A DNA stretch of 36,590 nt from Caldifarciminota bacterium (GTDB lineage: Bacteria > Hydrothermota > UBA3072), in the NCBI GenBank assembly GCA_016930175.1, contig JAFGHJ010000009.1:1-36590 (forward strand). The letters run 5' to 3'. Made by a program: the position numbers and the translations under genes. The notes under the pieces are model-generated. The model had not been told where the DNA came from. It saw only the letters and a program-made list of their open reading frames with translations, and did not search any database. Position 1 is the stretch's first letter. Every line of letters starts with the position of its first letter. Shown here one piece after another: positions 1 through 36,000 of the stretch.

Positions 1-3000
1 ATCCTTTAGATGAGGGTTTACCGCATGTTGAGAAAAGAGAATCGCCATATTCATATTTTTTTGATGATTTGAAACTCCTTTTAGATAAATCATTATATTA
101 TCTTGTTATGGATATAGAAGTTAAGCAAGGTATTATATATCTGTCGTCTGGAGCTTGGGTTTATAAATTCAGTTCTACAACAGGTGAGTTTATGGGGTGT
201 ATAAAACCTCCGAATAGAGAATTCCTTCACCTTAGAGGTATCGCAATTAAAGATAACGGCAATATTTTTGCTCTTGAAGCCGGAACCAAAACTTTATGGG
301 AGTTTTCGAATTACGGAGATAGTATTTCTGCGTTGTTTATTCCTATGCTGTATGGTTATGGAGATGTTGAGTATAATGACGGCGTGGTTTATATAGGTAA
401 TGAAAGAAACATTTTGACGATTGAAGGAACATCAATTGACTCTTTCTGTGGAGGCGAAGATTTTACGAAGCACCGTTACTACAAGCGAATTTCTATTTCT
501 GATAATGGGAAAATTGTAGTTGGAGGAGATTACGATGAGGGAGGAAGAGGGCTAAAAGTTTTCTCTTCGACAGGTGATTTTGAAGCGGAAATTTATCCTT
601 ATCCACGTTTTTATGACATGATTTTTTATAACAACGATATAATCCTTTGTGGGGGTTGGGATGCGATGGAGATTAATGTGTATCGAGAATTCGGAAAAGA
701 AAATGGATTGATAAGAGCTGGCCAGTCAGGATTTAAGAACCTGCCGCCGACATTTTTGTTTCAAGGTCATGATAATGTGGATGTCATGAATTCCGGTTCG
801 ATTTCGTATCAAGTTCCAGGTAACTCCTGGGAGGAGTTTATGCCTCTTGAAAGTTTTTACGGAACTGATTACATACCGCCGCCTGTTTATATAAACATGC
901 AGGGAGACTGGCAAGATTCACCTGTGTTTTATGATTGTTTATTTAACCTAAAAGTCTTAAATGTATTCGATTCGTCGATTGTCAAAAATGGATATGACTT
1001 AAATCTCTCACCATTTGATAACGTACCTTTCGCCGATACTATAAAAGATACAATACCGACGGGAGATTATTGTGTATTGGGAAAAGCAAATTCGAGCTAT
1101 CCTCAGAAAATAACTTCCGATTGGAAATTATTCACAGTAATCGGAGATGACCTGACTCTCCTTCTGAAATCAGACAAGGAAGAAGGCTTTGTAGAAGATA
1201 CATTCAGGATAAATCCTATCACAATAAACCCACTTCCTCTGGAAGAAGACAGTTTACACTTACTGATAAAGGGATACTACAACGAAAGTGAAACCACGTA
1301 TGTCGATACATCCTTCGTTTTATTGGCAGAAACTACGGATTCGTTCCCATTCATTATTACGCCCGAGGAGCCTTTGATTATAAAAGCGGAATTAATTGTG
1401 GGTTCTTCCGATACAATAAGAAGAGAATTTGTTCCCATTATAACGAGTAATAGAATGTTGGCATTAGATATATATGCTTCGGATATAGTGGACCTTTTAC
1501 CTTTCAACGTTACTTCTGAAGTTTATAATTATTCCTTCGACAGTCTTTCCGTAGAAGTTAAAAGGATATTCTTATCGGATACATTGAGCGATTCGGTAAA
1601 TCTTGAAATAGAAGGATTTCATACTTTTGTCGATACATTTATAACCGAACAACCGGGAACATTGAAGATTATCGCTTCTACAGGTGGAGTAGTCTTCACG
1701 GAAGAAAAATTCATAGATTTCGGAATGAATGGTGTTGTCCTTCTCGATTCTCTGTATGAAGTCTCTCCGGATTCTATCGAGATGAGCGGTATCGTTAGTA
1801 ATGCCGGACTTTATCCTTTAGAGTGTGATGCTCTTTTCTGTCTGGTGGAGGATGATGGAACAACCCATGAGACAGATGGTAATGATGGAGCAATATCTAT
1901 TCCGGGCGGCAGACAGTTCTCGACGTCAACAAAGCTTACAGCAACACAGCTCTCAGCTGACGGCTCTCGGCTGACAGCTAACTACTCAACTACTCAACAA
2001 CTCAACCACTCAACTGCCGTTTTGTCGGCTCAAAGGATGGCGCTTTCTTCGGTTCATAAGGTCGGCAAAGAAATGACGCTTTCCCAGTTTGTCCGGCAAT
2101 TAACAAGAGCCGGTGTGGACACTTCTTTCTCCGCTATATACCTTTCTCCCGGAAAAACAGATACTATACCCATTATGTTTAACAGGCATGATGTAGGCGA
2201 TTACGATCTCCTGGCATTTCTATTTACCGATTCTCAATCATTTATGTTCGATTCGACATCTTCGGATGTTAACGTCGTAGGCGATAACCAGTTATTTGTC
2301 GATTCTCTTTTTGTTTCGGAAAATTGCGATACAAATGGAGCCGTCCGCTTAACCGCTGTTCTGGATAACCGGTCATTCAGTCCTTTTTCCGGAAATCTGA
2401 CAATAAGTTCGCCTATTTGCTACTTAGATTCGCTCGTTTCTTTACCCTTACACTCAAAAGATACATTGGAGTTTTTACTCGAAGATCCGGTAGCGGAAGG
2501 AACATATACTTTTACATCGATAATCAGTGAAGGAGGAATTCCCGTAAGCCAAAAATCACAGGACATTGAATTCCATCCTATATATAGGTTCGATTCACTG
2601 CCTGCCAATCTCGAAGTATCGACACCGGATTCCGGAATAATAAGATTCCCTGTCAGAAATATCGGAAACGCGAAAGGAGAGAGGAATATAAGAGTTAATT
2701 TAGCGGATGTTATAAGTATAGACGAGTACGCGGTCATAGAACCGGCAGTTTCCGATACGTTTATAAATAACTTTCTCATTCCCGAAGACTTTCCAGGCGG
2801 AGAGTATTTCGCGGATGCTTATATTTTAAAAAACGCTTATCCCGAAATAGATACTTTCTTTAATGTAAAAGTTAACGGTCTTGTTATTAAAGCAGCCGAT
2901 TCTCTGGATAAATTAGTTTATAGTATCGATGATACAGCAGACCTCTCGATATTGATAGAAAATCAGTCGCTCTGGAGCGGCGATTTACTCGCTTCTTTAC

Positions 3001-5945
3001 AGTACGGAGAACTTGAACTGGATACTTCATTCCTCCTCGGAGGTATGGAAAAAGGTGTTTTAAACACAACAACTGATAGGGATACTCTATATCTGGATAC
3101 ATCCGGTGTTTATATGTTCGATCCCATAAACTCCGGGAGTTACGACAGTGTGAGGATAAATTGGAATGCTTCATTGTCCGATTCGCTTATTTTTCAGATG
3201 CGAACGGACTCTTTCATCGGAAGAGGAAACTGGATAACGCTTGAAAGAAATGGTACATATATTCTTGATGACTGGATGCAAATTAATTTTGCCAATAAAT
3301 CACCTGATACCCAGTGGATCGACGCGATTTGTCTTTATTTTAATTCTCTGGGCTGCACAAAATTGGATACTTTCCCACCGCAGAGAGAAATAGTTACCTT
3401 CGAGGTACCGGTCGACTCATCGCAAGAAAAACTCGGATGGGGTATTTACTATCCATCGGGAAGGTCCGTGGTACTGGATGAAAAATATATTTACCTTTCT
3501 GATAGTTTGTTGACTATCTTTACCGATAAAGCGAGATATGAGATTTTCGACACCGTTCACGCGACGCTGTGTAAAAATTTCCCCGACACAAATTACAATT
3601 TTGTGTACAGGGTATACTTCTCACCAACCGAAGAGATATGGGATACTTTTGTTCTTGCCAGAGACACAATGAATTTCTCATTTGTAATTCCCGAATGGAC
3701 GAGGTCGGGAACCTATTCGATAGATTACCGGATTAATGATACAGTGCTCTCGGCTGGCGGCTTACAGCTCTCCGCAACATTTTCCTCACACAAAGCCACA
3801 AAGAACACAGAGGGAAAAGGTGTGCTGTCTCAACAAAATCCCAACCCCCAAATCCTAAATCCTAATTTAACTATCCAACCTTTCAATAATCCAATTGCAA
3901 AACCCGGAGGGGTTGTACCGCTGGCGAAACAATGGGTAATGGGAAAACCCGCTTTAAGCGCGGATGGCGATTCGGCATTTATTTCGGGAGAACATTTATT
4001 CGATGTGGACGGAATAACGGTATACTTCAAAAACGCGAAGATGGACACAAACTTCTATTTTAACGGGGAAAAGGCAAAAATACGAACCGAGATTTTTTCG
4101 GATATAGACATTATGGTGGGTTTGAATATATCATCGACCGGTTCTGCTGTTAAAGACACTAATCTCGATCTTAAAAAAGACATGCCGAATAAATTCGAGT
4201 TTGAGTATCCTGTAGAAAACTGCAGGAGAGGAATGAACGAATTATACCTGCATCTTGCCAAAGACTCGATGAGTCTTGCGGGAATTGTCGTCTATTTCGA
4301 TGTATACGTGTCCGATTCTACCGCGCCTGTTATTTTCGTTCTGGAAAAACCTACCAATACCTACTCGAGTAATAGAGCTTATCAGTTAATGGCAAGAATT
4401 TACGGACCGGATGCGAACGGTACTCCTATCCATGATACACTTTATTATCGAATCGCGTCCGTTGGAGGTTCTTCCTGGCAGGCTCTTTTACCTCATTCGA
4501 TGAGAGGAGATACTCATAAATATTTGATTCCCTCTCATCCGAACGGAACTCATATCGAATATACCTTAATTGCAAGAGATGAATCTGATAATCGCGCCAC
4601 TTACCCCGAAGAAGGAAACGAAGATTTCTGGGTTCTTTCGCCTCTTAAACCTACCTGGAATGATTTAACTTACCTCGCTGACACCAATGCCATTTTAACA
4701 TGGAATCCGCCGGAAGAGATGGTTTACTATCACTGCGGACTCTGTTCGGATACAATCGATATAGAAGAAAATACGATTGCGACCCGGTTTACAACCCAGT
4801 GTCTGCCTGCCGTATTAAAAACGATAGGTCTTGAAATAGTTAAGGAAAACGGGGCTCTTTCCGATACGCTGACGGTTTCGGTATATACGGTCGCGGGTGA
4901 TTCGATACCGGGAACTAAAACAGATTCTTTTGAATTCACGGGAACTTTCGAAGGATACAATGAATTCGACCTCACGGATATTCAAATACCCGAAAACGGA
5001 ATATTCATTGGTGTAAGAGGCTCAAACGGGCTAAACTTACTTCTGGATGGTTTCGGAGAGGGGAGTCATACCGCAATAGACTCAAACGGCACGTGGAATT
5101 TGACGACCTCGGGAGAACTTGTGATAGACGGAATAGTCTCACACCTTCCCACGCCTAAGATAAGGGGCGCTTCAGAAATACTTACTTTTGATGTTTTTAG
5201 ATCTACAGAACAATCCGACTGGACAAAAATAGCTTCAGGTTTAACTTCGAGTACTTATACGGATGAATCTACTCAGGAAAATCAGGAATATTCATATAAA
5301 ATAATGGCTTCTTTCGGTAATCCCGCGGATTCATTTTTGTCTTCCAGCAGGGAGGTATTTATCGATGTTTCTCCTCCGGTAATGGATAGCATAGAGGTAA
5401 ACGATGTAGGTGAAAACGAATTAGTTATATGGGCAGCTCTTACGGATATATCCGGTATAGCATGGGATTCTCTCGGTTATAAAAGCGAAGAGACAATAAA
5501 TATGATTTCCGAGGATAGCTGTAGGAATAACAAATATTTCTTTTCTCTTGTCTTATCCAGAGACACTCTTGAATATTTCCTGAAAACCAAAGACGCGTCT
5601 CTGCTCGGCAATTACGTTCGATACCCGGCAAACGGGTTTTATAAATGGGGTTCGCAGTCCGGAATCCATGAACTGATTCCCGATTCAACATATCTTTTCA
5701 GGATGTCAAACGTTCTGGTGAGCAGTAATATAGAAATAAAATACGCTCTTTCGGAAGAAAGTGATATTCAGATTATGTTCTTCGATATTTTGGGAAGAAA
5801 GGCTAAAACCCTTGTGGATGAGACTAAGAAAGCCGGTTATTACTCGGCTTCGGTAAGATCAACCGAACTGCCTCAGGGGATATATTTCCTCCGAATGAAG
5901 GCGGGAGATTATCGAAAGACTTTAAAACTGGTGAAAGTAAGATAG
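1..5945 (+). CDS. Giant secreted propeller/Ig-like protein with C-terminal sorting domain (5' partial)
   Basis: The frame is open from the first bases with no ATG, ribosome site or signal peptide, so the true start lies upstream; a TTG at 69 is not convincing. About 1,980 residues are visible. Roughly the first 230 resemble NHL/beta-propeller strands (repeated 'dNG.i.v' turns). A very long Thr/Ser/Asp-rich stretch follows, resembling tandem CARDB/Ig-like domains, then an FN3-like segment near 1710-1780. The last ~80 residues form a FlgD-Ig/type-IX-like sorting domain (FFDILGRKAKTL, then LPQGIYFLRM and a basic end). Family knowledge suggests export and surface attachment; the ligand is unknown. 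Two low-complexity stretches, near residues 626-650 and 1226-1277 counted from the TTG at 69, are translated intergenic-type repeats (listed separately). No other gene is co-oriented close downstream. Confidence 0.85.
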   Translation, partial: PLDEGLPHVEKRESPYSYFFDDLKLLLDKSLYYLVMDIEVKQGIIYLSSGAWVYKFSSTTGEFMGCIKPPNREFLHLRGIAIKDNGNIFALEAGTKTLWEFSNYGDSISALFIPMLYGYGDVEYNDGVVYIGNERNILTIEGTSIDSFCGGEDFTKHRYYKRISISDNGKIVVGGDYDEGGRGLKVFSSTGDFEAEIYPYPRFYDMIFYNNDIILCGGWDAMEINVYREFGKENGLIRAGQSGFKNLPPTFLFQGHDNVDVMNSGSISYQVPGNSWEEFMPLESFYGTDYIPPPVYINMQGDWQDSPVFYDCLFNLKVLNVFDSSIVKNGYDLNLSPFDNVPFADTIKDTIPTGDYCVLGKANSSYPQKITSDWKLFTVIGDDLTLLLKSDKEEGFVEDTFRINPITINPLPLEEDSLHLLIKGYYNESETTYVDTSFVLLAETTDSFPFIITPEEPLIIKAELIVGSSDTIRREFVPIITSNRMLALDIYASDIVDLLPFNVTSEVYNYSFDSLSVEVKRIFLSDTLSDSVNLEIEGFHTFVDTFITEQPGTLKIIASTGGVVFTEEKFIDFGMNGVVLLDSLYEVSPDSIEMSGIVSNAGLYPLECDALFCLVEDDGTTHETDGNDGAISIPGGRQFSTSTKLTATQLSADGSRLTANYSTTQQLNHSTAVLSAQRMALSSVHKVGKEMTLSQFVRQLTRAGVDTSFSAIYLSPGKTDTIPIMFNRHDVGDYDLLAFLFTDSQSFMFDSTSSDVNVVGDNQLFVDSLFVSENCDTNGAVRLTAVLDNRSFSPFSGNLTISSPICYLDSLVSLPLHSKDTLEFLLEDPVAEGTYTFTSIISEGGIPVSQKSQDIEFHPIYRFDSLPANLEVSTPDSGIIRFPVRNIGNAKGERNIRVNLADVISIDEYAVIEPAVSDTFINNFLIPEDFPGGEYFADAYILKNAYPEIDTFFNVKVNGLVIKAADSLDKLVYSIDDTADLSILIENQSLWSGDLLASLQYGELELDTSFLLGGMEKGVLNTTTDRDTLYLDTSGVYMFDPINSGSYDSVRINWNASLSDSLIFQMRTDSFIGRGNWITLERNGTYILDDWMQINFANKSPDTQWIDAICLYFNSLGCTKLDTFPPQREIVTFEVPVDSSQEKLGWGIYYPSGRSVVLDEKYIYLSDSLLTIFTDKARYEIFDTVHATLCKNFPDTNYNFVYRVYFSPTEEIWDTFVLARDTMNFSFVIPEWTRSGTYSIDYRINDTVLSAGGLQLSATFSSHKATKNTEGKGVLSQQNPNPQILNPNLTIQPFNNPIAKPGGVVPLAKQWVMGKPALSADGDSAFISGEHLFDVDGITVYFKNAKMDTNFYFNGEKAKIRTEIFSDIDIMVGLNISSTGSAVKDTNLDLKKDMPNKFEFEYPVENCRRGMNELYLHLAKDSMSLAGIVVYFDVYVSDSTAPVIFVLEKPTNTYSSNRAYQLMARIYGPDANGTPIHDTLYYRIASVGGSSWQALLPHSMRGDTHKYLIPSHPNGTHIEYTLIARDESDNRATYPEEGNEDFWVLSPLKPTWNDLTYLADTNAILTWNPPEEMVYYHCGLCSDTIDIEENTIATRFTTQCLPAVLKTIGLEIVKENGALSDTLTVSVYTVAGDSIPGTKTDSFEFTGTFEGYNEFDLTDIQIPENGIFIGVRGSNGLNLLLDGFGEGSHTAIDSNGTWNLTTSGELVIDGIVSHLPTPKIRGASEILTFDVFRSTEQSDWTKIASGLTSSTYTDESTQENQEYSYKIMASFGNPADSFLSSSREVFIDVSPPVMDSIEVNDVGENELVIWAALTDISGIAWDSLGYKSEETINMISEDSCRNNKYFFSLVLSRDTLEYFLKTKDASLLGNYVRYPANGFYKWGSQSGIHELIPDSTYLFRMSNVLVSSNIEIKYALSEESDIQIMFFDILGRKAKTLVDETKKAGYYSASVRSTELPQGIYFLRMKAGDYRKTLKLVKVR
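1947..2015 (+). repeat. In-frame heptamer + octamer array inside the giant gene
   Basis: Five 7-nt units (CAGCTCT, CAGCTGA, CGGCTCT...) run from 1947 to 1981. They merge into an 8-nt-period array (CAACTACT type) from 1979 to 2015. The block is 69 nt, a multiple of three, and is read through as a Thr/Ser/Gln/Asn-rich stretch unlike the flanking Ig-like sequence. The same two word types recur, inverted, just after this gene's stop codon. Confidence 0.75.
3744..3896 (+). repeat. In-frame composite of repeat phrases inside the giant gene
   Basis: Three phrases follow one another: heptamers at 3744-3771 (CGGCTGG, CGGCTTA, CAGCTCT), octamers at 3788-3811 (ACACAAAG, CCACAAAG), and CCTAAAT-type heptamers around 3847-3867. 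They are translated as a Gln/Asn/Pro-rich stretch of about 50 residues without a stop. The same words occur in intergenic DNA elsewhere in the window. Confidence 0.65.
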
Positions 5946-6120
5946 ATACGGATACTCCGTATCAGTTGAATCGTTGAATAGATAAATAGTTAAATAGTGA
6001 AAACAGAACTCCAATTTTTACATGGGAGAAGAATAGCCGACAACTGAGAGCTGAAAGCTGAAAATAGAGGTATAATGTTTAAAAAAATAATAATTTCTCT
6101 TTTTGGGTCAATCTTTAGGA
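5945..6120. repeat. Hairpin and repeat phrases after the giant gene, with a possible gene-start remnant
   Basis: A perfect 8-bp hairpin with a 3-nt loop (GATACGGA/TCCGTATC) occupies 5945-5963; no T-run follows, so it is not a classical terminator. Octamers (GTTGAATC type) fill 5965-5999 and heptamers (GAGCTGA type) fill 6041-6061. At 6066-6076 a GAGG ribosome site precedes an ATG (6074) opening a signal-peptide-like MFKKIIISLFGSIF. This then runs into the 3' end of the oppositely oriented gene, so it may be a truncated gene remnant. Confidence 0.5.
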
Positions 6121-7194: not shown

Positions 7195-7208
7195 AATAGC
7201 GCCCCCTA

Positions 7209-7337: not shown

Positions 7338-7979
7338 ATGAATTACGAAAAACTTATAGATTTATTTGGTGATAGGCCTTTTTTTGAGAGCGGCGAAGTT
7401 CGCATTGCTTTTGAAGAACCTCGGGCGCAGATCGAAGCTCGTCTCTCTCGCTGGGTAAGCAACGGGAAACTCTTGAAACTTAGGCAGGGGAAATATCTTC
7501 TTCCGGGCAAATATAGACGAAATGAACCCTCTCCCGAATACATTTCGAATTATCTATACAGGCCTTCTTATATCAGTTTAAGAACTGCTTTAAGTATCTA
7601 CGGTATAATTCCTGAATCGGTTCATACGTACGAAGCGGTAACCACAAAAAAAACCGCGAAATGGGATACGCCGATAGGTAATTTTAAATACCATTCTATA
7701 AAGGGGGAAAGATTTTGGGGGTACGCTATTTATCCGAAGGAAGGTAGCGCCGCCAATCAGAAAACCTTTATGTTAGGTGAACCTGAGAAAGTTCTCCTCG
7801 ATCTCTTTTTTCTGATTAGAGGAGAATGGACAGAAAAAAGAATAAAGGAAATGCGATTTCAGAATCTATCGATTATAAAAAAAGTAAAACTTCAGAAGTA
7901 CGCGGAGGCGTTCGATAGCCCAAAGGGAAAAAGAGGTGTGAAACGTTTTACTAAAATTTATTCGAAGGAGATTGCATGA
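7338..7979 (+). CDS. AbiEi-type antitoxin, module 1
   Basis: The 213-residue protein is an AbiEi-family antitoxin/transcriptional regulator of a type IV toxin-antitoxin system. The N-terminal ~60 residues form a winged-helix DNA-binding domain (LSRWVSNGKLLKLRQGKYLL). The family core follows: RPSYISLRTALSIYG, an EAVTTKK segment, then RFWGYAIY and a leucine-rich helix (EPEKVLLDLFF). Characterised AbiEi proteins repress their own promoter and counteract the AbiEii nucleotidyltransferase without stable binding. Here the gene overlaps the toxin gene by 4 nt (ATGA). Its promoter is back-to-back with that of the exported protein at 6634-7194, so it may repress both. Confidence 0.85.
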   Translation: MNYEKLIDLFGDRPFFESGEVRIAFEEPRAQIEARLSRWVSNGKLLKLRQGKYLLPGKYRRNEPSPEYISNYLYRPSYISLRTALSIYGIIPESVHTYEAVTTKKTAKWDTPIGNFKYHSIKGERFWGYAIYPKEGSAANQKTFMLGEPEKVLLDLFFLIRGEWTEKRIKEMRFQNLSIIKKVKLQKYAEAFDSPKGKRGVKRFTKIYSKEIA

Positions 7980-8776
7980 AAGAAAGAGCTTTAGTCATTG
8001 TCTCGCAAGAAAAGAATCCCCAACTATCTTTTAACAAACTCCGGGAATATCTTCAACACGTTATCTTAAGAGAGTTGTTCGAACAAGGAGTACTAGATAA
8101 TATCGTTTTTCATGGTGGTACCGCTTTGAGAATTCTTTTTGATTTACGAAGATTTTCGGAAGATCTGGATTTTCATACGCTGAACAAAAATGAATTCGAT
8201 TTAGAAAAAGTCGTTAAAAAAATGATGGATCATTTGCCTCAACAGGGATACAGAGTAAGCGTAACAACAAACTTTAAGGGTGCTGTTCGATCGGCGTTTA
8301 TAAAATTCAATGACCTTTTATCCGAAATGGGTTTAAGTCGACAAAAAGGAGAAAAACTCAGAGTAAAGATTGAAGTGGACACAAAACCTCCCGAAGGCTA
8401 TAACACAAAATCTTCTCTAATAAATAAGTATTTTCCCTTTGGGTTTATTCATCACGACAGGGCATCTTTCCTTTCCGGCAAATTACACGCAGTCCTTCAG
8501 CATTCATATACAAAGGGCAGAGATTTTTATGATCTCTGGTTTTATCTCAGCAGATGGAAAGATCTCAGCCCAAACTTCCAATATCTTAATAATGCCCTAA
8601 AGCAAACCAAATATGAGGGTCTTTCTATTAAAAAAGAAAATTGGAAAAAAGTAACTTCATCGAAAATAAAAGGAATCGACTGGGATTATGTGGTAAGCGA
8701 CGTAGAGCCCTTCATCGAAAATCAAAATGATCTTAAGGTCTTCTCAAAAAAAACAATGTTAGAATTGTTAAAATAA
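7976..8776 (+). CDS. AbiEii/AbiGii-type nucleotidyltransferase toxin, module 1
   Basis: The 266-residue protein is a nucleotidyltransferase of the AbiEii family. The catalytic signature is intact: HGGTALR (G47-G48) and RFSEDLDFH, with the metal-binding aspartates at 63 and 65. A later conserved segment, KGRDFYDLWFYLSR near residue 178, is typical of the family. Members modify tRNA or other RNA ends with nucleotides and stop growth, often during phage infection; the substrate here is unknown. The ATGA overlap with the antitoxin gene indicates translational coupling. Confidence 0.87.
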   Translation: MKERALVIVSQEKNPQLSFNKLREYLQHVILRELFEQGVLDNIVFHGGTALRILFDLRRFSEDLDFHTLNKNEFDLEKVVKKMMDHLPQQGYRVSVTTNFKGAVRSAFIKFNDLLSEMGLSRQKGEKLRVKIEVDTKPPEGYNTKSSLINKYFPFGFIHHDRASFLSGKLHAVLQHSYTKGRDFYDLWFYLSRWKDLSPNFQYLNNALKQTKYEGLSIKKENWKKVTSSKIKGIDWDYVVSDVEPFIENQNDLKVFSKKTMLELLK

Positions 8777-8790
8777 CAACCCGTAGTTAG

Positions 8791-8988
8791 CCACGGATAA
8801 ACACGGAGACACAGAGGACACAAAGTTTTTAAAAGGTTGGTCTGTTGGTCAGTTAGTCCGTTGGTCTGTTTTTTTACACACCAACGCACCCACGAACTAA
8901 CGCACTACTTTGATTGTTTTTTTGACCAGTGACTGGTGACTGATGACTCGGTGCTCCGCACCGTACCCCTTGACTTATGAGAATAATT
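8791..8988 (+). repeat. Composite repeat element A ending in hairpin and promoter remnant
   Basis: Ordered phrases: octamers ACACGGAG/ACACAGAG (8801-8825), octamers GGTCTGTT (8839-8870, four exact-length units), octamers TAACGCAC (8882-8905), heptamers TGACTGG (8923-8950, four units). A CGGTGC-TCC-GCACCG hairpin (8949-8963) follows, then CCCCTTGACTTATGAG. The promoter half stops at about 8991, where the stop codon of the convergent AbiEi gene begins, and the -10 box is absent. The same phrase order appears inverted at 17489-17620. Confidence 0.7.
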
Positions 8989-8989
8989 T

Positions 8990-10263: not shown

Positions 10264-10292
10264 GGGGGGGTGATCGACACTTTTAGTGTCTA

Positions 10293-10334
10293 ATTGTAAA
10301 TTGCAAGTTGGAAATTGAAAATTGGAAATTGAAA
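10293..10334 (+). repeat. Heptamer array, ATTGNAA type
   Basis: Six consecutive 7-nt units (ATTGTAA, ATTGCAA, GTTGGAA...) with no phase slip. The array lies between abiE module 2 and the CWFG family gene and is non-coding. A related, more decayed stretch is at 35944-36000. Confidence 0.75.
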
Positions 10335-10374
10335 ATATTATTTTCGTGGATTAGTGCGGGTATTTTTTGTTGTT

Positions 10375-10845: not shown

Positions 10846-10928
10846 GATCGTTTGAATATAGTGTTGGGGGGTTTTGTTTTTTCGGTCTCCCGTCCTCGGT
10901 CATCGGTCAATTAAGATTTCCCCAATAC

Positions 10929-11062
10929 TTGACATATGGTATATCTTAATTAAGCTAGTATACTATGAGTATAAGGACTGGTAATATGTTTAAAAAGATA
11001 AAAATTCAAAGATGATCTGGCCCCAAAAGAGTATTTATATTAAACATCCATAACTATCAAAC
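10929..11062 (+). promoter_or_regulatory. Leader cassette P upstream of the DUF433/PIN-like pair
   Basis: TTGACA (10929-10934), 16 bp, a weak TAAGCT (10951-10956), then the inverted repeat TATACT-ATG-AGTATA (10959-10973). From the central ATG (10965) a 16-codon frame runs to 11015 and contains MFKKIKIQR. It is followed by the shared segment CCCCAAAAGAGTAT. The parts recur in the same order in cassette Q, ahead of another toxin-antitoxin pair. Confidence 0.5.
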
Positions 11063-11091
11063 TTGACATTTGTGTTAAATTAAGTTATTAT
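11063..11091 (+). promoter_or_regulatory. Promoter of the DUF433 gene
   Basis: TTGACA at 11063-11068, 17-bp spacer, TATTAT at 11086-11091. A GAGG ribosome site precedes the ATG at 11113. Confidence 0.65.
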
Positions 11092-11112
11092 TGAAAAATG
11101 AGGTGAAGAGGA

Positions 11113-11346
11113 ATGAAAGTTTTTGAAAGAATTGAAGTAGACGAAAATATACTCCATGGGGAACCCCATATAAAAGGGACTCGCGTTCCCGTTAAATTGG
11201 TTTTATCATTATTGAGTGAGGGTTTAACACCTGAAGAAATAATAAAGGAACATTATCCTATTCTTAAAAAAGAAGATATACTTTCCTGTATTAAATATCT
11301 CACTCAAATTCTTGAAGAAGAAGAGATTCATTACGTAAAAAGCTGA
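11113..11346 (+). CDS. DUF433-family antitoxin
   Basis: A complete 77-residue DUF433 protein. The family signature is clear: HGEPHIKGTRVPVKLVLSLL, then LTPEEIIKEHYP, a short HTH-like fold. DUF433 genes are commonly paired with a DUF5615 PIN-like gene as a type II toxin-antitoxin module, and that pairing is seen here with a 3-nt gap. The downstream partner is frameshifted, so this may be an orphan antitoxin. The gene has its own TTGACA promoter and GAGG site. Confidence 0.82.
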   Translation: MKVFERIEVDENILHGEPHIKGTRVPVKLVLSLLSEGLTPEEIIKEHYPILKKEDILSCIKYLTQILEEEEIHYVKS

Positions 11347-11349
11347 TTA

Positions 11350-11708
11350 ATGCCTGTTTTCTTTATCGATGAGTGTGTTTCCATTCAAACAGAGAAATTT
11401 CTAAGGAACTTAAAATATAAAACTGTAACCGTAAATGATCATAAATTGTCAGGCGCGTCTGATAAAAAATATTCGACCTTGCTAAAAAGGAAGGATATAT
11501 TCTTGTAACTTATGACAGGGGTTTTGGAAACATAATTAAATATCCCCCATCATCCCATAATGGAATAATGTTGCTAAAAGTGAGAAATAAATCTTCGATG
11601 GAGAGATGTCATAAAGTCCTTAAAAACTTATTAAATAGAGAAAAAGATTTTAAATCTACTTTATTTGTAATTGACGAAAATAAGTATAGAAAGAGAAAAA
11701 AACCATAA
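11350..11708 (+). pseudogene. DUF5615 PIN-like toxin, frameshifted
   Basis: From ATG 11350 the frame reads MPVFFIDECVS, the acidic-residue start of DUF5615/PIN-like proteins, but stops early, near 11508. From about 11470 the next frame continues IFDLAKKEGYILVTYDRGFG, the family's central motif, to a stop at 11706-11708. Adding one A to the A6 run at 11464-11469 restores a single frame of 119 codons including the stop, a normal family length. The break could be a true mutation in a homopolymer, slippage-regulated expression, or a sequencing error. Repaired, it would be the likely RNase-like toxin partner of the DUF433 gene. Confidence 0.75.
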
Positions 11709-11920
11709 TAAAGATCAAACAGGATTGATATTTTGAAATTTTTTTTGCCGTCAGCCGTAGGCGGTATACGGATAGCCATTTCTGACTAATGACTCGCAAT
11801 GCGACGCATTGCGCCCTTGAATTCTTTGAGTTTTTTTTACAAACCAACTATCCCACGAACCAACTTACCAACTTGTACGTACGCAAACCTCTTGACATCT
11901 CAGGTACGTACACTAAATTT
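11709..11920 (+). repeat. Repeat-filled gap with hairpin element D
   Basis: Two TGACTAA/TGACTCG heptamers (11783-11796) run into a GCAATGC-GAC-GCATTGC hairpin (11796-11813), followed by GCCCTTGAATTC. This is the heptamer-hairpin-promoter layout of elements A, B and C with a different stem sequence. Octamers of ACCAACTT type fill 11843-11874. Two GTACGTAC palindromes at 11875-11882 and 11904-11911 flank a TTGACA. No gene was seen. Confidence 0.6.
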
Positions 11921-12051
11921 CATACTATGAGTATGAAAACATTATGTTATAATGATCAGCTGACAAACCTCTACCGTAGAGGTAAAATGTATAAAAAAAT
12001 AAAAATTCAAAAAATAAGACCTGCCCCCAATAGAGTATAGATTAATTAGTC
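11892..12051 (+). promoter_or_regulatory. Leader cassette Q upstream of the Phd/RelE-like pair
   Basis: TTGACA (11892-11897), 16 bp, TAAATT (11914-11919), 7 nt, then the ATG (11927) inside the inverted repeat CATACT-ATG-AGTATG (11921-11935). The 37-codon frame ends at 12040 and includes MYKKIKIQK, matching cassette P. Before that internal ATG a hairpin ACCTCTA-CCG-TAGAGGT holds a GAGG ribosome site. The outer base pair of the inverted repeat is C-G here and T-A in cassette P, so the symmetry is kept. Confidence 0.5.
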
Positions 12052-12079
12052 TTGACTTTGATTTAAATACTCCTATAAT
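12052..12079 (+). promoter_or_regulatory. Promoter of the Phd/RelE-like pair
   Basis: TTGACT at 12052-12057, 16-bp spacer, consensus TATAAT at 12074-12079. A GGAGG ribosome site (12097-12101) precedes the ATG at 12106. Confidence 0.75.
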
Positions 12080-12105
12080 TTAATATATGTTTTTTTGGAG
12101 GGATA

Positions 12106-12309
12106 ATGAAAACTCTAACTGAAAAATTTTTAGTTGATAAAAAAGGAAAAAAAGTAGGTGTAGTGCTTAGTTTTTCCGAATATAAGGAACTTCTTAAAGA
12201 ATTAGAGGAGCTTGAGTCCCTTTACGCTTATGATAAAGCAAAGGCTTCAGAAGATGAAGTAATACCGTTTGAACAAGCCATAGAAGAAATCGAAAAAAAC
12301 CGGGGATGA
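12106..12309 (+). CDS. Phd/YefM-like antitoxin
   Basis: A 67-residue acidic protein. The first ~30 residues (LVDKKGKKVGVVLSFSEYKELL) match the Phd/YefM-type pattern of a beta-hairpin followed by 'eY..Ll.el'. The C-terminus is a Glu-rich helix suited to wrapping the toxin. It overlaps the RelE-like gene by 4 nt (ATGA), the standard antitoxin-toxin arrangement. Autoregulation at the promoter 30 nt upstream is inferred from the family. Sequence identity to a named antitoxin family is weak, so the call rests partly on context. Confidence 0.72.
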   Translation: MKTLTEKFLVDKKGKKVGVVLSFSEYKELLKELEELESLYAYDKAKASEDEVIPFEQAIEEIEKNRG

Positions 12310-12560
12310 ATTATTCTCTCTTAATTCTCCGTAGAGCTCAAAAAGAACTTTCTGATTTACCGATAGACGTTTACGAAAAAGTTAAGCAAACTATTTTAAA
12401 GTTAAGTAAGAATCCAAGACCTTATGGATGTAAAAAGCTTAAAGGTAGGGATGGGTGGAGAATAAGAGTAGGGAATTATCGTATTATTTATGAGATTAAT
12501 GATAAAGATAAATCAATAATTATTTTTCATATAGGCCATCGAAAAGATATTTATAAATAA
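12306..12560 (+). CDS. RelE/ParE-superfamily toxin
   Basis: The 84-residue protein is a typical RelE-type toxin: an N-terminal helix pair (LRRAQKELSDLP), a Pro-rich turn (NPRPYGCKKLKG), then the core strands GWRIRVGNYRIIYEI and the C-terminal IIFHIGHRKDIYK. The conserved Arg, Tyr and C-terminal His-Arg positions fit the ribosome-dependent mRNA interferase branch rather than ParE, but this is a judgement from motifs. The length is normal and the gene appears intact. Confidence 0.85.
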   Translation: MNYSLLILRRAQKELSDLPIDVYEKVKQTILKLSKNPRPYGCKKLKGRDGWRIRVGNYRIIYEINDKDKSIIIFHIGHRKDIYK

Positions 12561-12595
12561 AAAAAGGAAACACCGACCCCTCCCACGGAGGTATA

Positions 12596-14120: not shown

Positions 14121-14202
14121 TGACCAGTGACTGGCGACTAGTGACTGATGACTCGGTGCTCCGCACCGCACCCCTTGACTTTTTCAAATATTTATATATT
14201 TT
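14121..14202 (+). promoter_or_regulatory. Element B: heptamer array, hairpin and promoter of abiE module 3
   Basis: Five heptamers (TGACCAG, TGACTGG, CGACTAG...) at 14121-14155 lead into the CGGTGC-TCC-GCACCG hairpin and CCCCTTGACT. TTGACT lies at 14175-14180 and TATTTT at 14197-14202 (16-bp spacing). The leader to the ATG at 14244 is about 35 nt without a strong ribosome site. Confidence 0.6.
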
Positions 14203-14243: not shown

Positions 14244-14861
14244 ATGAATTTTATAGAATTTAAGGAAAAATTTAAAGATTTCACAGTTTTTTCCCTTAAC
14301 GATATAAGGAATATCGATGGGAATTTCCGAAGAAGGAGCCTGAATGAATGGCAGGATAAGGGTTACATAAAGAAGGTTATCGATAAGTATTATATTTTCT
14401 CGGATTTGGAGCTTAACGAGAATGTGCTTTTTGAGATAGCTAATCGCATTTATAGTCCTTCTTATATTTCTTTGGAAATGGCGCTTTCGTATTATCATTT
14501 AATTCCCGAAAGCGTGTATATAGTAACTTCGGTTACAACAAGAAAGACCAATTCGTTCGATACTAAAATCGGGAGTTTTGATTACAGAACGGTAAAGCCT
14601 GAGCTTTTTTTCGGCTATTCAATCGAAAATTATGGCGATAAGCATTATAAAATAGCAAGTATAGAAAAGAGTATTCTGGATTATTTATATTTGAATCCCG
14701 GAGTCAGGGAAAAAGCAGATTTTGAATCTTTGAGAATAAATTATGATGAATTCCGGAGCAATATAGACCCGGAAAAAATAGATAGCTACCTTTCTGTATT
14801 TCGTCAAAAAACATTAAAAAGAAGAGTGGATTCTTTTATGGGGTACATGAAAAATGCTTGA
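14244..14861 (+). CDS. AbiEi-type antitoxin, module 3
   Basis: A 205-residue AbiEi-family protein: winged helix (RRRSLNEWQDKGYIKKVIDK, ~30-49), SPSYISLEMALSYYHLIPE near 73, SVTTRKTNSFDT near 98, and PELFFGYSIE. It is closer to module 1 than to module 2 in these motifs and has the same antitoxin-first order. It overlaps the toxin gene by 8 nt. The promoter belongs to repeat element B, so a copy of a mobile or amplified intergenic element appears to drive it. Confidence 0.84.
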   Translation: MNFIEFKEKFKDFTVFSLNDIRNIDGNFRRRSLNEWQDKGYIKKVIDKYYIFSDLELNENVLFEIANRIYSPSYISLEMALSYYHLIPESVYIVTSVTTRKTNSFDTKIGSFDYRTVKPELFFGYSIENYGDKHYKIASIEKSILDYLYLNPGVREKADFESLRINYDEFRSNIDPEKIDSYLSVFRQKTLKRRVDSFMGYMKNA

Positions 14862-15639
14862 TTTAGAACAGATAGAAAAATTTTATACCGAGAATGTAAA
14901 AGTGTTTAAGAGAAATATTCTCCGTGAATATCTTCAATATAAGATTCTGGAAATAATATTCGACTCTAACGAAGGAAGCAAGATTTCGTTTATGGGGGGA
15001 ACGGCTATACGTATAATTCATTCGAACGGAAGATTCTCCGAAGATCTGGATTTTGATAACCGTGGAATTGACAAGAAAAATTTTCTGAAGCTTGCCGAAA
15101 AGATAAAAAAAAGACTTGAATTAGAAGGTTATAAGGTCGAGTTAAAAAATAGTACGGACGGCGTGTTCAGGTCTTATATAAAGATAAAGGAAGTTCTTTA
15201 TAAATACGGTCTCTCTCAACATCCGGCGGAGAAATTGACAATACAGTTAGATATGGAACCCCAGGATTTCGAGTATAATCCGGACAAAAAAATCATAAAT
15301 AAGTTTGATATATTTATAAGAAGCAATATAGTTCCCCCGGATATTCTTCTTGCTCAGAAGATAACAGCAATTTTTACTCGCCCCAGAGCTATGGGAAGAG
15401 ATTTTTACGACACGGTATTCCTTCTGGGGCTAACAAAGCCAAGCATTAAGTATTTAAAAGATAAACTTGGAATCAGTGGTTATGGAGAATTAAAAAAGAA
15501 ACTTATTCAAAAAACAAAAAATCTGGATTTTAAAAAACTGGCTGAAGATATAGAGCCATTTTTAATAAACCCGGGGGATAAGAAAAGAGTTTTATTATTC
15601 AAGGAATACATTGAAGAATCTATTGGCCGTGAGCAGTGA
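14854..15639 (+). CDS. AbiEii-type nucleotidyltransferase toxin, module 3
   Basis: A 261-residue AbiEii-family nucleotidyltransferase with MGGTAIR (G48-G49), RFSEDLDFD (D64, D66), and MGRDFYDTVFLLG near 185. The catalytic residues are present, so it should be active. The last residues (GREQ) and the stop codon are encoded by a heptamer array (GAGCAGT, GAGCTGA...) that continues into the non-coding DNA, so the original C-terminus may have been replaced by repeat sequence. Confidence 0.86.
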   Translation: MLDLEQIEKFYTENVKVFKRNILREYLQYKILEIIFDSNEGSKISFMGGTAIRIIHSNGRFSEDLDFDNRGIDKKNFLKLAEKIKKRLELEGYKVELKNSTDGVFRSYIKIKEVLYKYGLSQHPAEKLTIQLDMEPQDFEYNPDKKIINKFDIFIRSNIVPPDILLAQKITAIFTRPRAMGRDFYDTVFLLGLTKPSIKYLKDKLGISGYGELKKKLIQKTKNLDFKKLAEDIEPFLINPGDKKRVLLFKEYIEESIGREQ

Positions 15640-15658
15640 GCTGAAAGCTGTGAGCTGT
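15631..15658 (+). repeat. Heptamer array spanning the stop codon of AbiEii-3
   Basis: Four units, GAGCAGT, GAGCTGA, AAGCTGT, GAGCTGT, without phase slip. The stop codon TGA at 15637-15639 lies inside. The word matches the inverted array in the giant gene at 1947. Confidence 0.75.
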
Positions 15659-15661: not shown

Positions 15662-15745
15662 TGACCAATGACTCGTGACTGATGACTCGGTGCTCCGCAC
15701 CGTACCCCTTGACTTATGAGAATGATTTTTTATACTATGAGTATA
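15662..15745 (+). promoter_or_regulatory. Element C: heptamer array, hairpin and promoter with inverted repeat
   Basis: Four TGACTCG-type heptamers (15662-15689), the CGGTGC-TCC-GCACCG hairpin, CCCCTTGACT (TTGACT 15709-15714), a 16-bp spacer and TATACT (15731-15736). The -10 is also the left arm of TATACT-ATG-AGTATA (15731-15745). It probably drives the HEPN-like gene at 15834. Confidence 0.65.
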
Positions 15746-17388: not shown

Positions 17389-17488
17389 TAGATGTAAAGT
17401 TTTAACAAATAATTCGGAAATTGATAGGCTTAGTCTTATTTTTTTAATTTCCAGACCAACAAATAAAAACTCTGTGAGTAAAATTTAG

Positions 17489-17656
17489 TCATCAGTCATT
17501 AGTCGCCAGTCATTAGTCAAAAAAATAACAAAAGTTAGTGCGTAAATGCGTAGAAGCGTTAGAGCGTTAAAAAAACAGCCCAACCGACCAACCTTTTAAA
17601 GTCTCTGTGTCTCTGTGTGAATTAGTGTTTCGAGTTTAGAGTTTCGTGTTTCGAGT
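17489..17656 (-). repeat. Composite repeat element E (inverted partner of A) plus GTTTCGA array
   Basis: Read on the minus strand the order is: octamers CACAGAGA (17616-17600), a TTTAAAAGGTTGGTC link, octamers of AACGCTTC type (17570-17540), a T-rich link and TGACTAA heptamers (17516-17489). This is the order of element A at 8801-8950, without hairpin and promoter. Beyond it on the plus strand, four GTTTCGA-type heptamers fill 17627-17654. No gene was seen in the 473-bp gap 17389-17861. Confidence 0.65.
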
Positions 17657-17692: not shown

Positions 17693-17816
17693 TAGTGTTC
17701 TTTGTGTCTTTGTGTGAGAATTTTTTTGGGTGGGGGGAGGGTTTTAAACCACATAAATATATTTTTTTCTCAGTGTTCTCCGTGTGTATGTTTTTTCTCT
17801 GTGTGCTCTGTGGTTA
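17693..17816 (+). repeat. Dispersed repeat F upstream of the glycolipid operon
   Basis: Octamers TTTGTGTC (17693-17716), a G-rich tract, TTTTAAACCACATAAATATA, then CTCTGTGTG-type octamers. The same ordered sequence, with differences, lies at 27513-27632, in both cases just upstream of a promoter without a leader. Confidence 0.65.
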
Positions 17817-17824
17817 AGTAAGCC

Positions 17825-17852
17825 TTGACATATCTCCTTTTATTTTTATATT
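17825..17852 (+). promoter_or_regulatory. Leaderless promoter of the glycolipid operon
   Basis: TTGACA at 17825-17830, 16-bp spacer, TATATT at 17847-17852. Only 9 nt separate the -10 box from the ATG at 17862, and there is no ribosome site. Confidence 0.75.
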
Positions 17853-20077: not shown

Positions 20078-20099
20078 ATGAAAATGGGGTACTGTGAGT

Positions 20100-21083
20100 A
20101 TGAAATTTAACAAAGCTCATCTTTTTAGAGGATTAAGGATTTTTCTTTTTATAACTTTTCTGGCGATAACGTTGATTCTTGTCTTTACTGTCAGCAAAGA
20201 GACGAAGGAAGAATTGCAATTGATTTCTCCCCTGTTTATTATTCTAACGGTTTTATCTGCTTGTCTAAGTCAATTTTTCAATATATGGAGGCTTCGTTAT
20301 ATTATAAAAGCTTTAGGTAAAGAAATCAGCTGGAGCGGAGCTTTCTATTATACCATAGGAGGTTTATTTTTGGGCGGTGTTACGCCTCTGCAGGTTGGGG
20401 GTGTGCCTCTTCAGTTATACATCTGCAGAAGGGAAGATATAACTATACCGGAAGCGAGTGCCGCGATATTTACAAGAGGGTTGTTGTCTTTTTTTGTTCT
20501 TCCTTTACTGGCTCCGCTTGTTTATTATTACCGGGTATATTTTACAGCGGGAATGATGCAGGGGATAGTAAAGTATCTTTCTATCTTCTACGGGGTCGGG
20601 ATTTCGTTATTCATATTTGTTATCGCGAAGACCGACTGGCTTACCAAAAAGTTTAAGGGCAAATTTTTTAAGGGTGTAGTAGAATTTAAAGAAGTATTCA
20701 GAAAAGAGTTCGTTAAGAGAAAAGGCGCGTTTTTCAACGCCTATCTTTTAACTGCACTTTCTCTTGTTTTTAATTTTCTTATAGCGTTTCTTCTTCTTCG
20801 CGGTTTGGGAGTACGAGCCGATTTCTTTAAAGCCACTGTTCTGCAGATTATTCTCACTTACGGTCTGGCTTTTATGCCTACTCCCGGGGCATCGGGTCTT
20901 GCGGAGGGGAGTGCTTATGGGTTGTTCAGAGACCTTGTCCCAAAGTCGATTCTTGGCGTATATGTGGTATTATGGAGATTTTTCACCAGTTATCTCGGTA
21001 TGATAATCGGCGGAATTGCTCTGTCACGCTTTTTAGTGGAAATAAAAACGGACGAGGGGAAAGAAAAGATAGCTGACAGCTGA
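20100..21083 (+). CDS. UPF0104/LPG-synthase-TM-like integral membrane protein
   Basis: About 327 residues with seven to eight hydrophobic segments. The conserved loops of the family are present: GGLFLGGVTPLQVGGVPLQ near residue 85 and MPTPGASGLAEGSAYGLF near 260. Members include the flippase half of lysylphosphatidylglycerol synthase and stand-alone lipid-transport or glycolipid-related proteins. I choose ATG 20100 (GGGG 10 nt upstream); a GTG at 20094 is the alternative. A 10-codon ORF starting at 20078 with a better AGGGGAG site overlaps the start and could couple translation. The last codons and stop lie in AGCTGAC/AGCTGAT repeats. Confidence 0.78.
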   Translation: MKFNKAHLFRGLRIFLFITFLAITLILVFTVSKETKEELQLISPLFIILTVLSACLSQFFNIWRLRYIIKALGKEISWSGAFYYTIGGLFLGGVTPLQVGGVPLQLYICRREDITIPEASAAIFTRGLLSFFVLPLLAPLVYYYRVYFTAGMMQGIVKYLSIFYGVGISLFIFVIAKTDWLTKKFKGKFFKGVVEFKEVFRKEFVKRKGAFFNAYLLTALSLVFNFLIAFLLLRGLGVRADFFKATVLQIILTYGLAFMPTPGASGLAEGSAYGLFRDLVPKSILGVYVVLWRFFTSYLGMIIGGIALSRFLVEIKTDEGKEKIADS

Positions 21084-21207
21084 TGGAAGAAAGGTCTCAG
21101 GTCTTAGGTCTAGTTGGTTCGTATATGCGTAGATGCGTTAATCACCCTTCCCATAAAAATATTTGATTTTTTAACTCTCTAACTCTCTAACGCTCTAACC
21201 CTTTAAC
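21072..21207 (+). repeat. Repeat phrases after the glycolipid operon
   Basis: AGCTGAC and AGCTGAT (21072-21085) contain the stop codon of the preceding gene. Then come heptamers AGGTCTC/T/A (21093-21113), octamers ATATGCGT/AGATGCGT (21123-21138) and octamers TAACTCTC (21172-21207, four and a half units). The region lies between convergent genes and holds no terminator I can identify. Confidence 0.7.
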
Positions 21208-21227
21208 GATTTTGTGGCTTCTGTAAA

Positions 21228-27049: not shown

Positions 27050-27109
27050 CTAGTCGGATTAGTGGAATTTTAATGTAAAAGGCAACGAGGTTAATTTCTT
27101 CGACAGTTT

Positions 27110-27486
27110 GATTCGCAAGGAGTGCTGTCCGAGAAAGACGTGGTCAATTTCCCCGGCGGTTGTCGTTCGGGTATACCTTTCTAAAAAACCGCAGTCAGTT
27201 TTCCCTGCGGGTTGATTCGTAAGGAGTACTATTCGAGAAAGACGTGGTCAGTTTCCCCCAACGTGGAAATTGCCACTCGGCTCTCGGGTTCGCTCCTTTT
27301 GAAATGGCTACATTTCAAAAGACCATGCTCGCTCACCCTGCGAGACGCTTTCTTGGACAGTACCCCTTGCTCATTTTATCAATAAAAGACCGTGCCCGCT
27401 CGGTCTCCTCGCCCGGTGGAATAGCTGCTCAATACAGGGCAACTACTATTCCACCAGGCGAGACATTTTCTTGAATAAGTATCTCT
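27110..27486. repeat. Hairpin-rich repeat cluster G
   Basis: Two 45-bp direct copies at 27110-27154 and 27214-27258 differ at about five positions and start 104 bp apart. Two partial inverted copies lie near 27344-27370 and 27459-27485. Hairpins include a perfect 11-bp stem with 4-nt loop at 27296-27321 (CTTTTGAAATG/CATTTCAAAAG), CCGCAG/CTGCGG at 27189-27210, and a GGTGGAATAG/CTATTCCACC pair at about 27414-27455. No ORF of note and no T-runs were seen. GC content is visibly higher than in the flanks. Confidence 0.6.
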
Positions 27487-27512: not shown

Positions 27513-27632
27513 TTAGTGTCTTTGCGTCTTTGTGTGAGAAAATTTTGGGTTGTGGGCTGAGATTTTTTAACAACATATATATTTTTCTCTGTGTTCCCTG
27601 TGTGTTTTTTTTCTGTGTGTTCTCTGTGGTTC
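27513..27632 (+). repeat. Dispersed repeat F' upstream of the PBP gene
   Basis: Second copy of repeat F (17693-17816): TTAGTGTC/TTTGCGTC/TTTGTGTG octamers, a GGGTTGTGGG tract, an ACATATATATTTTTCTC stretch and CTGTGTGTTCTCTGTGG. It lies directly before a promoter, as does the first copy. Confidence 0.65.
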
Positions 27633-27659
27633 AATAATTTTTTTGGGGAGGGGTGTGGC

Positions 27660-27690
27660 TTGACTTTGACATAAAGGGGATTAATATAAT
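27660..27690 (+). promoter_or_regulatory. Promoter of the PBP gene
   Basis: Consensus TATAAT at 27685-27690 is 3 nt before the first ATG (27694) and exactly 6 nt before the second (27697). The -35 is uncertain: TTGACT at 27660-27665 gives a long 19-bp spacer and TTGACA at 27666-27671 gives 13. The ATG at 27697 would be leaderless. Confidence 0.55.
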
Positions 27691-27693
27691 TCC

Positions 27694-29868: not shown

Positions 29869-29877
29869 GAGGGTTTT

Positions 29878-30510: not shown

Positions 30511-30785
30511 ATGATAAAACAGAACCACAGAGGACACGGAGAAATTGATCGTGTTGAAAAGAACTCACAGAGAACACGGAGAAAAAAAAGATAATAGCTA
30601 CGGATGAACACAGATGTACACTGATAAGAAAATTTTTTATTTTGTTGTTAAAAAAAGTATTTGGTGATGGGTGGTTGGAGGATCTGTGTTAATCGGTGAA
30701 AATCAGCGGCTATTTAAGGGTTTAGGGGGGTAAACAATAAACAATCTTGAATTAATCTTGTGGTTAAATAAAAGGAGGGGTTTTT
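30511..30785 (+). repeat. Repeat phrases between the PBP operon and the serA-like gene
   Basis: Octamers CCACAGAG/GACACGGA (30525-30540) and CTCACAGA/GAACACGG (30564-30580), then ACGGATGAACACAGATG and, further on, GATCTGTGTTAATCGGTG. These are further members of the CACAGAG word family. A GGAGG site lies at 30773-30778 for the next gene; the promoter is unclear (TTGAAT near 30748). Confidence 0.55.
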
Positions 30786-32919: not shown

Positions 32920-32964
32920 TTTTTGAAACGGGAGCATTTTATTTGATGATTGGGAGGTAATATT

Positions 32965-34176: not shown

Positions 34177-34177
34177 G

Positions 34178-34546: not shown

Positions 34547-34547
34547 A

Positions 34548-34937
34548 ATGAAAGAGGAAATTCTACGCATTCCCATCAATAAAGAGATAGATGTCTTAAT
34601 TGCCAGGCGGGAAATAAAAAGTGAGGCGGAACGTATAGGTTTCCGCTGGATAGATCAGACAAGGATTGCTACAGCTGTTTCTGAACTTACAAGAAATATT
34701 ATAAAACATGCTTACCGGGGAGAGGTAGTAGTTAATAAGGATGATGGGGGTATAGAGATAATATGCCAGGATGAAGGACCTGGCATTCCTGATGTTGAGC
34801 AAGCTTTAGAAAAGGGATTCAGCACTACGAATTCGCTTGGTATTGGGCTTATCGGCGCCAAACATCTTATGGACGATTTTAAAATTGAGAGTAACGATAG
34901 AGGAACAACAATAACTGCTTACAAGAAGTTGAAATGA
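34548..34937 (+). CDS. rsbT: RsbT-like switch protein/serine kinase
   Basis: A 129-residue GHKL-type kinase. The N box ELTRNIIKHAY (E46, N50), G1 box DEGPGIPD (75-82) and G2 box NSLGIGLIGAK (95-105) are intact. RsbT phosphorylates RsbS and RsbR and, once released, activates a downstream partner (RsbU or a fused output). No RsbU, anti-sigma factor or sigma factor is in the window. It overlaps the next gene by 4 nt. Confidence 0.88.
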   Translation: MKEEILRIPINKEIDVLIARREIKSEAERIGFRWIDQTRIATAVSELTRNIIKHAYRGEVVVNKDDGGIEIICQDEGPGIPDVEQALEKGFSTTNSLGIGLIGAKHLMDDFKIESNDRGTTITAYKKLK

Positions 34938-35923: not shown

Positions 35924-35940
35924 CACTTAAAACCTTTAAA

Positions 35941-36000
35941 GGTTGAAAATTGAATAGCAAAATGGAAAATTATAAATTAAAGTTTAAAAATAAAAATTGG
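35941..36000 (+). repeat. Decayed A/T-rich heptamer stretch
   Basis: ATTGAAT/ATGGAAA/ATTGGAAA-like units related to the array at 10293-10334. They lie between the phosphatase gene and RsbR copy 3. The phase is not kept throughout. Confidence 0.4.

Follow-up and report, generated by a model that had tools for sequence, protein, structure and literature searches.

The question raised by this locus is how its genes came to be separated by short arrays of degenerate 7- and 8-nt words, many arrays having a word of their own. Bacterial short tandem repeats are usually attributed to local slippage. The reading that we favour, at a probability of about 0.5, is that the phrases are fast-turnover, dispersed arrays of degenerate words that were inserted in neutral gaps and then edited by whole-unit indels, and the analysis points away from chance and towards dispersed repeats of a kind that has hardly been described. 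The window, i.e., the whole stretch of DNA analysed, is contig C13 (36,590 bp, 37.6% G+C) of G000, a 2.34-Mb, 94%-complete genome. All 22 arrays listed in the initial annotation were recovered at their coordinates and with their period. They had been called intergenic, which is correct for most of them and wrong for 1947-1981, 1979-2015, 3744-3771 and 3788-3811, which lie in frame inside the open ORF 69-5945. The use of both strands was borne out, 17489-17516 being the TGACT word reversed. The arrays of the window are as follows.

1947..2015, + strand: NRGCTNN heptamers (5 units) passing into AACNACTN octamers (4.5 units), in frame inside ORF 69-5945
3744..3811, + strand: weak GCT-type heptamers and ACACAAAG-type octamers, which lie inside ORF 69-5945 and do not reach significance by themselves
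5961..6002, + strand: GTTNAATN octamers, 4-5 units
6041..6061, + strand: AGCTGA heptamers, 3 units (p 0.08 alone)
8788..8989, + strand: composite 'sentence' of a CACNGAG/CACAGAG phrase, a GTTNGTCN phrase (8836-8870), a T-run, a NCACNAAC phrase (8876-8907), a T-run, a TGACTNN phrase (8923-8950), the hairpin CGGTGC-TCC-GCACCG and then TTGACTT
10292..10340, + strand: ATTGNAA heptamers, 6 units
11843..11874, + strand: ACCAACTN octamers, 4 units
14121..14155, + strand: TGACTNN heptamers, 5 units, then a CGGTGCTCCGCACCG hairpin
15631..15658, + strand: AGCTGT/A heptamer phrase, which provides the TGA stop of ORF 14854-15639
15662..15689, + strand: TGACTNN heptamers, 4 units; array and hairpin tail together match the copy at 8919-8989 with 96% identity across 71 bp
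17485..17620, - strand: reversed 'sentence' of TGACTNN (17485-17516), AACGCNTC octamers (17537-17571), a GGTTGGTC remnant and a CACAGAGA phrase
17622..17656, + strand: GTTTCGA heptamers (AACNCGA reversed), 5 units
17693..17840, - strand: reversed CAC-word phrases (CTTTGTG.., CTCTGTG..CTCTGTGGTT)
21065..21227, + strand: AGCTGA heptamers holding the stop codon of ORF 20094-21083, GGTCTNA heptamers, GCGTNGAT octamers and AACNCTCN octamers (21158-21212); this gap is absent in the same-genus relative
27513..27660, - strand: reversed CAC-word phrases (TTAGTGTCTTTGCGTCTTTGTGTG ... TTCTCTGTGGTT)
30524..30625, + strand: CAC-word phrases ACCACAGAGGACACGGAG / CTCACAGAGAACACGGAG / CTACGGATGAACACAGATGTACACTGAT, periods 9 and 10

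Since the stop codons of two ORFs lie inside AGCTGA-type arrays, phrases appear to have replaced the 3' ends of these genes. A hairpin CGGTGC-TCC-GCACCG and a -35-like box TTGACTT follow three TGACTNN arrays (8951-8989, 14156-14190 and 15690-15730), and at 15690 a TATACT box stands about 17 nt beyond TTGACTT. The window also contains an AbiEii-type toxin gene (7976-8776, Pfam AbiEii), small ORFs that by eye look toxin-antitoxin-like (DUF433/PIN-like and RelE-like) within 10846-12595, a stretch called intergenic, and one large ORF with a weak Por secretion tail match. A tandem repeat of 52-nt period (TTGATTCGTAAGGAGTACTATTCGAGAAAGACGTGGTCAGTTTCCCC..) occupies 27108-27258 and has a diverged, dispersed copy on another contig (L029:18827-19299). 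No Rfam match was obtained in the window, this repeat included.

Only 9 of the 22 listed arrays were significant alone at a window-wide p<0.05; the others gain support because their word recurs, and three TGACTNN units in tandem were found nine times in the intergenic sample, never in coding DNA and never for the reversed word. This sample was taken from 717 kb of G000, in which masking of ORFs left 76 kb of intergenic DNA, and array regions (>=14/21 matches at lag L) were compared with the mean of dinucleotide shuffles. The intergenic regions numbered 159 vs 16 in shuffles at lag 7, 140 vs 17 at lag 8, 120 vs 17 at lag 9 and 35 vs 17 at lag 10, which is a 7–10-fold excess at lags 7, 8 and 9, and the harmonics were also raised (83 vs 16 at lag 14, 76 vs 13 at lag 16). 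At this looser threshold lags 5 and 6 gave 33 and 41 regions, respectively, with 20 expected for each; under a stricter one they fell near background, as did lags 11 and 12, and arrays of period 7-10 covered 9.2% of the intergenic DNA vs 0.6% in shuffles (3.5%, 3.3%, 1.9% and 0.6% at lags 7, 8, 9 and 10, shuffles 0.1-0.2%). There are thus three clear periods, 7, 8 and 9, and a weak fourth, 10, so the claim that only two periods are allowed fails. In coding DNA a clear excess appeared solely at multiples of 3, with none at 7 or 8. A strong lag-2 excess in the intergenic DNA of G000 (215 regions vs 34 shuffled) is partly due to AC/TG and A/T runs. The weakness of several listed arrays taken one by one is what could speak for chance or a compositional artefact, a reading to which we give practically no weight: the excess is about 10-fold over dinucleotide shuffles and missing from coding DNA, the same-genus relative G001 has no specific peak at 7-9, and shuffles, coding DNA and reversed-word controls together rule it out. 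The expectation that the signal exceeds chance, with a genome-wide excess at lags 7 and 8 that dinucleotide shuffles do not reproduce, is supported. The proposed analogy with STRR heptamer repeats is supported too, and the mark of such repeats, a surplus of tandem 7-nt units outside coding DNA, is present; a single preferred unit length of 7 is lacking, 8 being about equal and 9 nearly so.

That many words occur with restricted periods was also correct, each period being tied to particular words, but the vocabulary is limited, and about 12 word families account for most arrays. They include TGACTNN, AGCTGAN, ATTGNAA, GGATTTN and AACNCGA (7 nt), GTTNGTCN, AACNCTCN/AACNCACN, GTTNAATN and CACNAAGN (8 nt), CACAGAGNN and CACNAAAYA (9 nt) and CACNGATNNA (10 nt), and the about 12 words gave about 98 intergenic matches vs 4 in the eightfold larger coding DNA, with 0 for the reversed words. 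The octamers tend to the form XXX-N-YYY-N, i.e., a triplet, a free base, a triplet and a free base, and 26 of the 64 octamer arrays had their two most variable columns four positions from each other, where chance gives about 9. The arrays of G000 are short and rarely perfect, and a unit is no copy of the one next to it: free letters agreed in 34 adjacent unit pairs, about 51 being expected from random units of the same word, and in only 2 of 42 pairs within strict GCCACNAAG (GCCAC) arrays. Exact adjacent duplicates numbered 6 among 297 heptamer units, the same as after shuffling of the unit order. The (nearly) identical tandem copies typical of heptamer repeats are thus not found, and recent local slippage is not the main source of the G000 arrays, because neighbours are not mutual copies.

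Comparison of the intergenic DNA with itself yielded 756 pairs of similar regions; in the best of them identity is about 65-95% across as much as ~230 bp, and in one pair the difference between the two paralogues is exactly 21 nt, which is three heptamer units. The blocks recur in order, namely CAC phrase, GTTNGTCN phrase, T-run, NCACNAAC phrase, T-run and TGACTNN phrase, at 8788-8989, reversed at 17485-17620, and at L014:17354-17500. The CAC-headed words (8–10 nt) form the arms of imperfect palindromes: consecutive CAC heads in a gap were oriented +- 12 times and -+ 0 times in G000, and 54 vs 9 times elsewhere, so that terminal inverted repeats of the MITE kind exist for the CAC-headed elements only. 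Free-letter complementarity between palindrome arms showed no excess over permutation. The GCCAC element (~146 nt, beginning with GCCAC) folds strongly, with z -7.5. Stable folding of the window arrays was not seen (DNA folding z near 0), and a hairpin explanation was dropped for them; the one exception, 10264-10374 (z -2.3), has its predicted stems mostly outside the array.

Between G000 and G001, 96 orthologous adjacent gene pairs were comparable. All five gaps with arrays in G000 (144, 186, 351, 321 and 685 bp) hold no array in G001 and are shorter there by about 200-320 bp, and the other 91 gaps, array-free, measure close to 0 bp in either genome. With a median protein identity of 64%, G001 is a distant relative, and deletion on its side is therefore a possible alternative. 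The word pattern CCACAGAGNNCACAGAG matched 88 times in G000, 0 times in G001 and 54 times in the family member G004, and across the phylum its distribution is patchy (37 of 147 genomes, the control matching once in all of them together). A single slot was also compared across 15 species of Flavobacterium, the neighbouring stretches having short synteny and 2 usable slots. Twelve of the 15 species add at most 17 bp there. In F. pectinovorum the insert measures 166 bp and is a GCCAC palindrome that encloses another, dispersed one; a second species holds (ATGAGTT)2(AACYTGA)7 and a third (AGTCRAA)9. Three tandem AACYTGA units matched 118 times in the genome whose slot holds (AACYTGA)7, and AGTCRAA x3 matched 32 times in the genome with (AGTCRAA)9 vs 0-6 times in other Flavobacterium genomes; the new array therefore carries a word already expanded in its genome. 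Empty sites in relatives, as known for MITEs, exist at the Flavobacterium slot and, for arrays in general, at the five G000/G001 slots. No clear target-site duplication was seen at the Flavobacterium junction, and no transposase could be linked to the elements. The nested palindrome, TTTCACGCAGATT..AATCTGCGTGAAA, occurs at L091:6640-6715 and at dozens of Flavobacterium loci.

Some words are common to distant phyla. The pattern GCCACNAAGNCACNAAGNCACNAAG (GCCACNAAG x3, 20 fixed letters) was found in at least 118 stretches from over a dozen phyla, where by our own estimate chance would give about 0.5 in the 257 Gb collection, and it often serves as an arm of an imperfect palindrome. The record titles among the matches listed name Bacteroidetes, Planctomycetes, Deltaproteobacteria/Desulfobacterales, Acidobacteria/Aminicenantes, Nitrospirae, Calditrichaceae, Ignavibacteria, Elusimicrobia, Omnitrophota, Neomarinimicrobiota, Cloacimonadota, WOR-3, Verrucomicrobia and Kiritimatiellia. 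The remaining intergenic DNA of the other-phylum loci, which were preselected for carrying one phrase, shows a similar excess at 7, 8 and 9. In 20 genomes of such phrase-bearing loci CCACAGAGNNCACAGAG gave about 47 matches and 0 for the control, mostly in a Nitrospiria, an Omnitrophota and a planctomycete, and tandem AACYTGA was present in each of the 15 Flavobacterium genomes examined and reached 553 occurrences in Desulfonema magnum, the control matching nowhere. In L120 (Flavobacterium stagni) a block of ~100 bp, made of 8-mers and 7-mers, is repeated many times along the locus, the copies differing largely at free letters. In Bacteroidota, TGACT arrays are for the most part perfect heptamers of diverse kinds, and matches to the reversed control come just as freely there; they reflect generic heptamer arrays, TGACT is not supported as a pan-bacterial word, and cross-phylum sharing holds for some words only.

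Set free columns, a recurring vocabulary, ordered sentences and the slot results lead us to prefer block copying over pure local slippage. A block would be 20-80 bp of one degenerate 7-, 8-, 9- or 10-nt word with fixed and set free letters, and CAC-headed words would often form both arms of an imperfect palindrome of 60-250 bp. Such blocks may be copied from the vocabulary that the genome already has, or come from outside; once placed in neutral space between genes, they would be stacked as composite sentences or nested within one another, and later altered by gain or loss of whole units. Copying and insertion, MITE/REP-like in behaviour or repair-driven, would be the main source, with the free letters presumably unconstrained and the fixed letters kept by template identity or selection. 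The periodicity, the vocabulary, gaps composed of paralogous blocks and a whole-unit indel between paralogues are direct observations, and so are the slots that lack arrays in relatives, the differing arrays within a single orthologous slot and the cross-phylum occurrence of some words; the insertion step draws on five slots compared with the fairly distant G001 and on one multi-species slot. The initial annotation had suspected a specific generating process and proposed comparing the loci in sister genomes; that comparison points to block insertion of pre-existing words and not to the making of new words in place. Several results count against block copying: no target-site duplication, linked transposase or defined element ends emerged, the G000 heptamer words TGACTNN and AGCTGA were not found in the other-phylum loci, the window phrases do not form stable hairpins, and Bacteroidota abound in perfect heptamer arrays of many words, the reversed control among them, which fits a generic heptamer expansion.

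Local replication slippage favouring units of ~7-8 nt, which would grow arrays from chance seeds later degraded by point mutation (a proposal that PMC4679880 and PMC4692102 attribute to Mrazek 2007), is possible, though on the whole doubtful as the general origin. Many bacteria have an over-representation of heptamers, Bacteroidota carry near-perfect heptamer arrays built on many words, unit numbers differ between apparently orthologous arrays and paralogues differ by whole units, and pure slippage does account for such unit-number changes and for the perfect heptamer arrays elsewhere. It agrees poorly with G000 neighbours that are not mutual copies, with variation in set columns, with words that recur genome-wide in fixed order and in part across phyla, and with new slots that hold a word already abundant in that genome. 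A broader proposal, which we consider improbable, is that many phyla share mobile degenerate arrays of strict grammar (XXXN-YYYN octamers, CACN-headed 8-10-mers), moved or written by an undescribed, dedicated machinery that would keep the fixed and renew the free letters, and that the intergenic DNA of some lineages is largely so built.

The fixed and free columns, the intergenic location and the position of many Flavobacterium arrays just upstream of start codons could also indicate putative binding sites for a regulator or RNA-binding protein reading the fixed letters, as MacGregor suggested for TAACTGA repeats near start codons (PMC4679880). We regard such sites as quite unlikely, given that a single genome uses many unrelated words and four periods, that arrays also lie between convergent genes (21084-21227), that they are absent at 5/5 comparable slots in the same-genus relative, and that composite blocks have no fixed position relative to promoters. 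The palindromic CAC-word elements might instead be REP-like repeats moved by RAYT (TnpA-REP) transposases, whose genes, as is known, may be accompanied by REPs or else by inverted repeats of an unrelated kind; imperfect palindromes (the 12:0 and 54:9 orientation counts) and patchy cross-phylum spread would agree with this. The sole Y1_Tnp match of the genome (PF01797; G000:C29, L191:1003-2050) is a RAYT-like gene flanked by an unrelated inverted repeat of its own, AATTACACATTCTGGTCGCGGAAGAAGGTGTGTAGTTTGGGGGTGG, with two copies on one side, and by none of the array words, and the elements show no GTAG/CGTC tag by eye and exceed the 20-40-bp REP class. They therefore neither are tagged REP palindromes nor flank a Y1 transposase gene, the RAYT link was rejected for G000, and its general probability is, if anything, a shade lower than that of binding sites. 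Finally, set words, periods and free letters look templated and arrays often stand in inverted pairs, as if a telomerase-like or other RNA-templated reverse transcriptase wrote the words at DNA ends; this is very improbable and was rejected, since the 94%-complete genome has no RVT_1 (PF00078) match, no template RNA came to light and the window has no Rfam match.

Non-copy neighbours, set variable columns, cross-phylum words and gains of different words at one slot in sister genomes make the question of origin testable in closely related strains. A large and mostly unannotated intergenic share in some environmental bacteria would then also be recognised as one class of dispersed repeat. Heptamer over-representation, degenerate GGGANTN arrays and TAACTGA repeats, the last common to Beggiatoaceae, Cyanobacteria and Bacteroidetes, have been described, and both slippage and horizontal transfer have been proposed for heptamer repeats (PMC4692102, Rehm 2015; PMC4679880, MacGregor 2015). 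REPs and the inverted repeats linked to RAYT genes are likewise on record (Di Nocera 2013, PMC3733652; Quentin 2018, PMC6006769). No description of the multi-period vocabulary or of the CAC-word palindromes was found in the openly licensed literature, and for the words themselves it gave only a Bacteroides fragilis primer containing CTCTGTGTTCTCTGTG. The arrays resemble STRR/LSSR heptamers in their 7-nt period, intergenic location, many loci and unit-wise length change, GGGANTN arrays in their heterogeneous units with fixed and free letters, and TAACTGA heptamers in their patchy distribution across taxa. Unlike known heptamers, about 12 words with periods 7, 8, 9 and 10 occur here in one genome, the octamers tend to XXXN-YYYN, the arrays are short, rarely perfect and stacked into ordered sentences, and 8-10-nt words make palindrome arms, one of them common to over a dozen phyla. 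As in REP/BIME and RAYT-linked repeats, there are short, dispersed, palindromic intergenic elements, patchy across phyla and in inverted pairs, but the arms are degenerate tandem words of 20-35 bp, untagged and not adjoining a RAYT gene. With MITEs they have in common that they are non-coding and short, with inverted ends, empty sites in relatives and nesting, whereas neither a parent transposon nor a clear target-site duplication was seen for them and their arms differ from one another at set positions.
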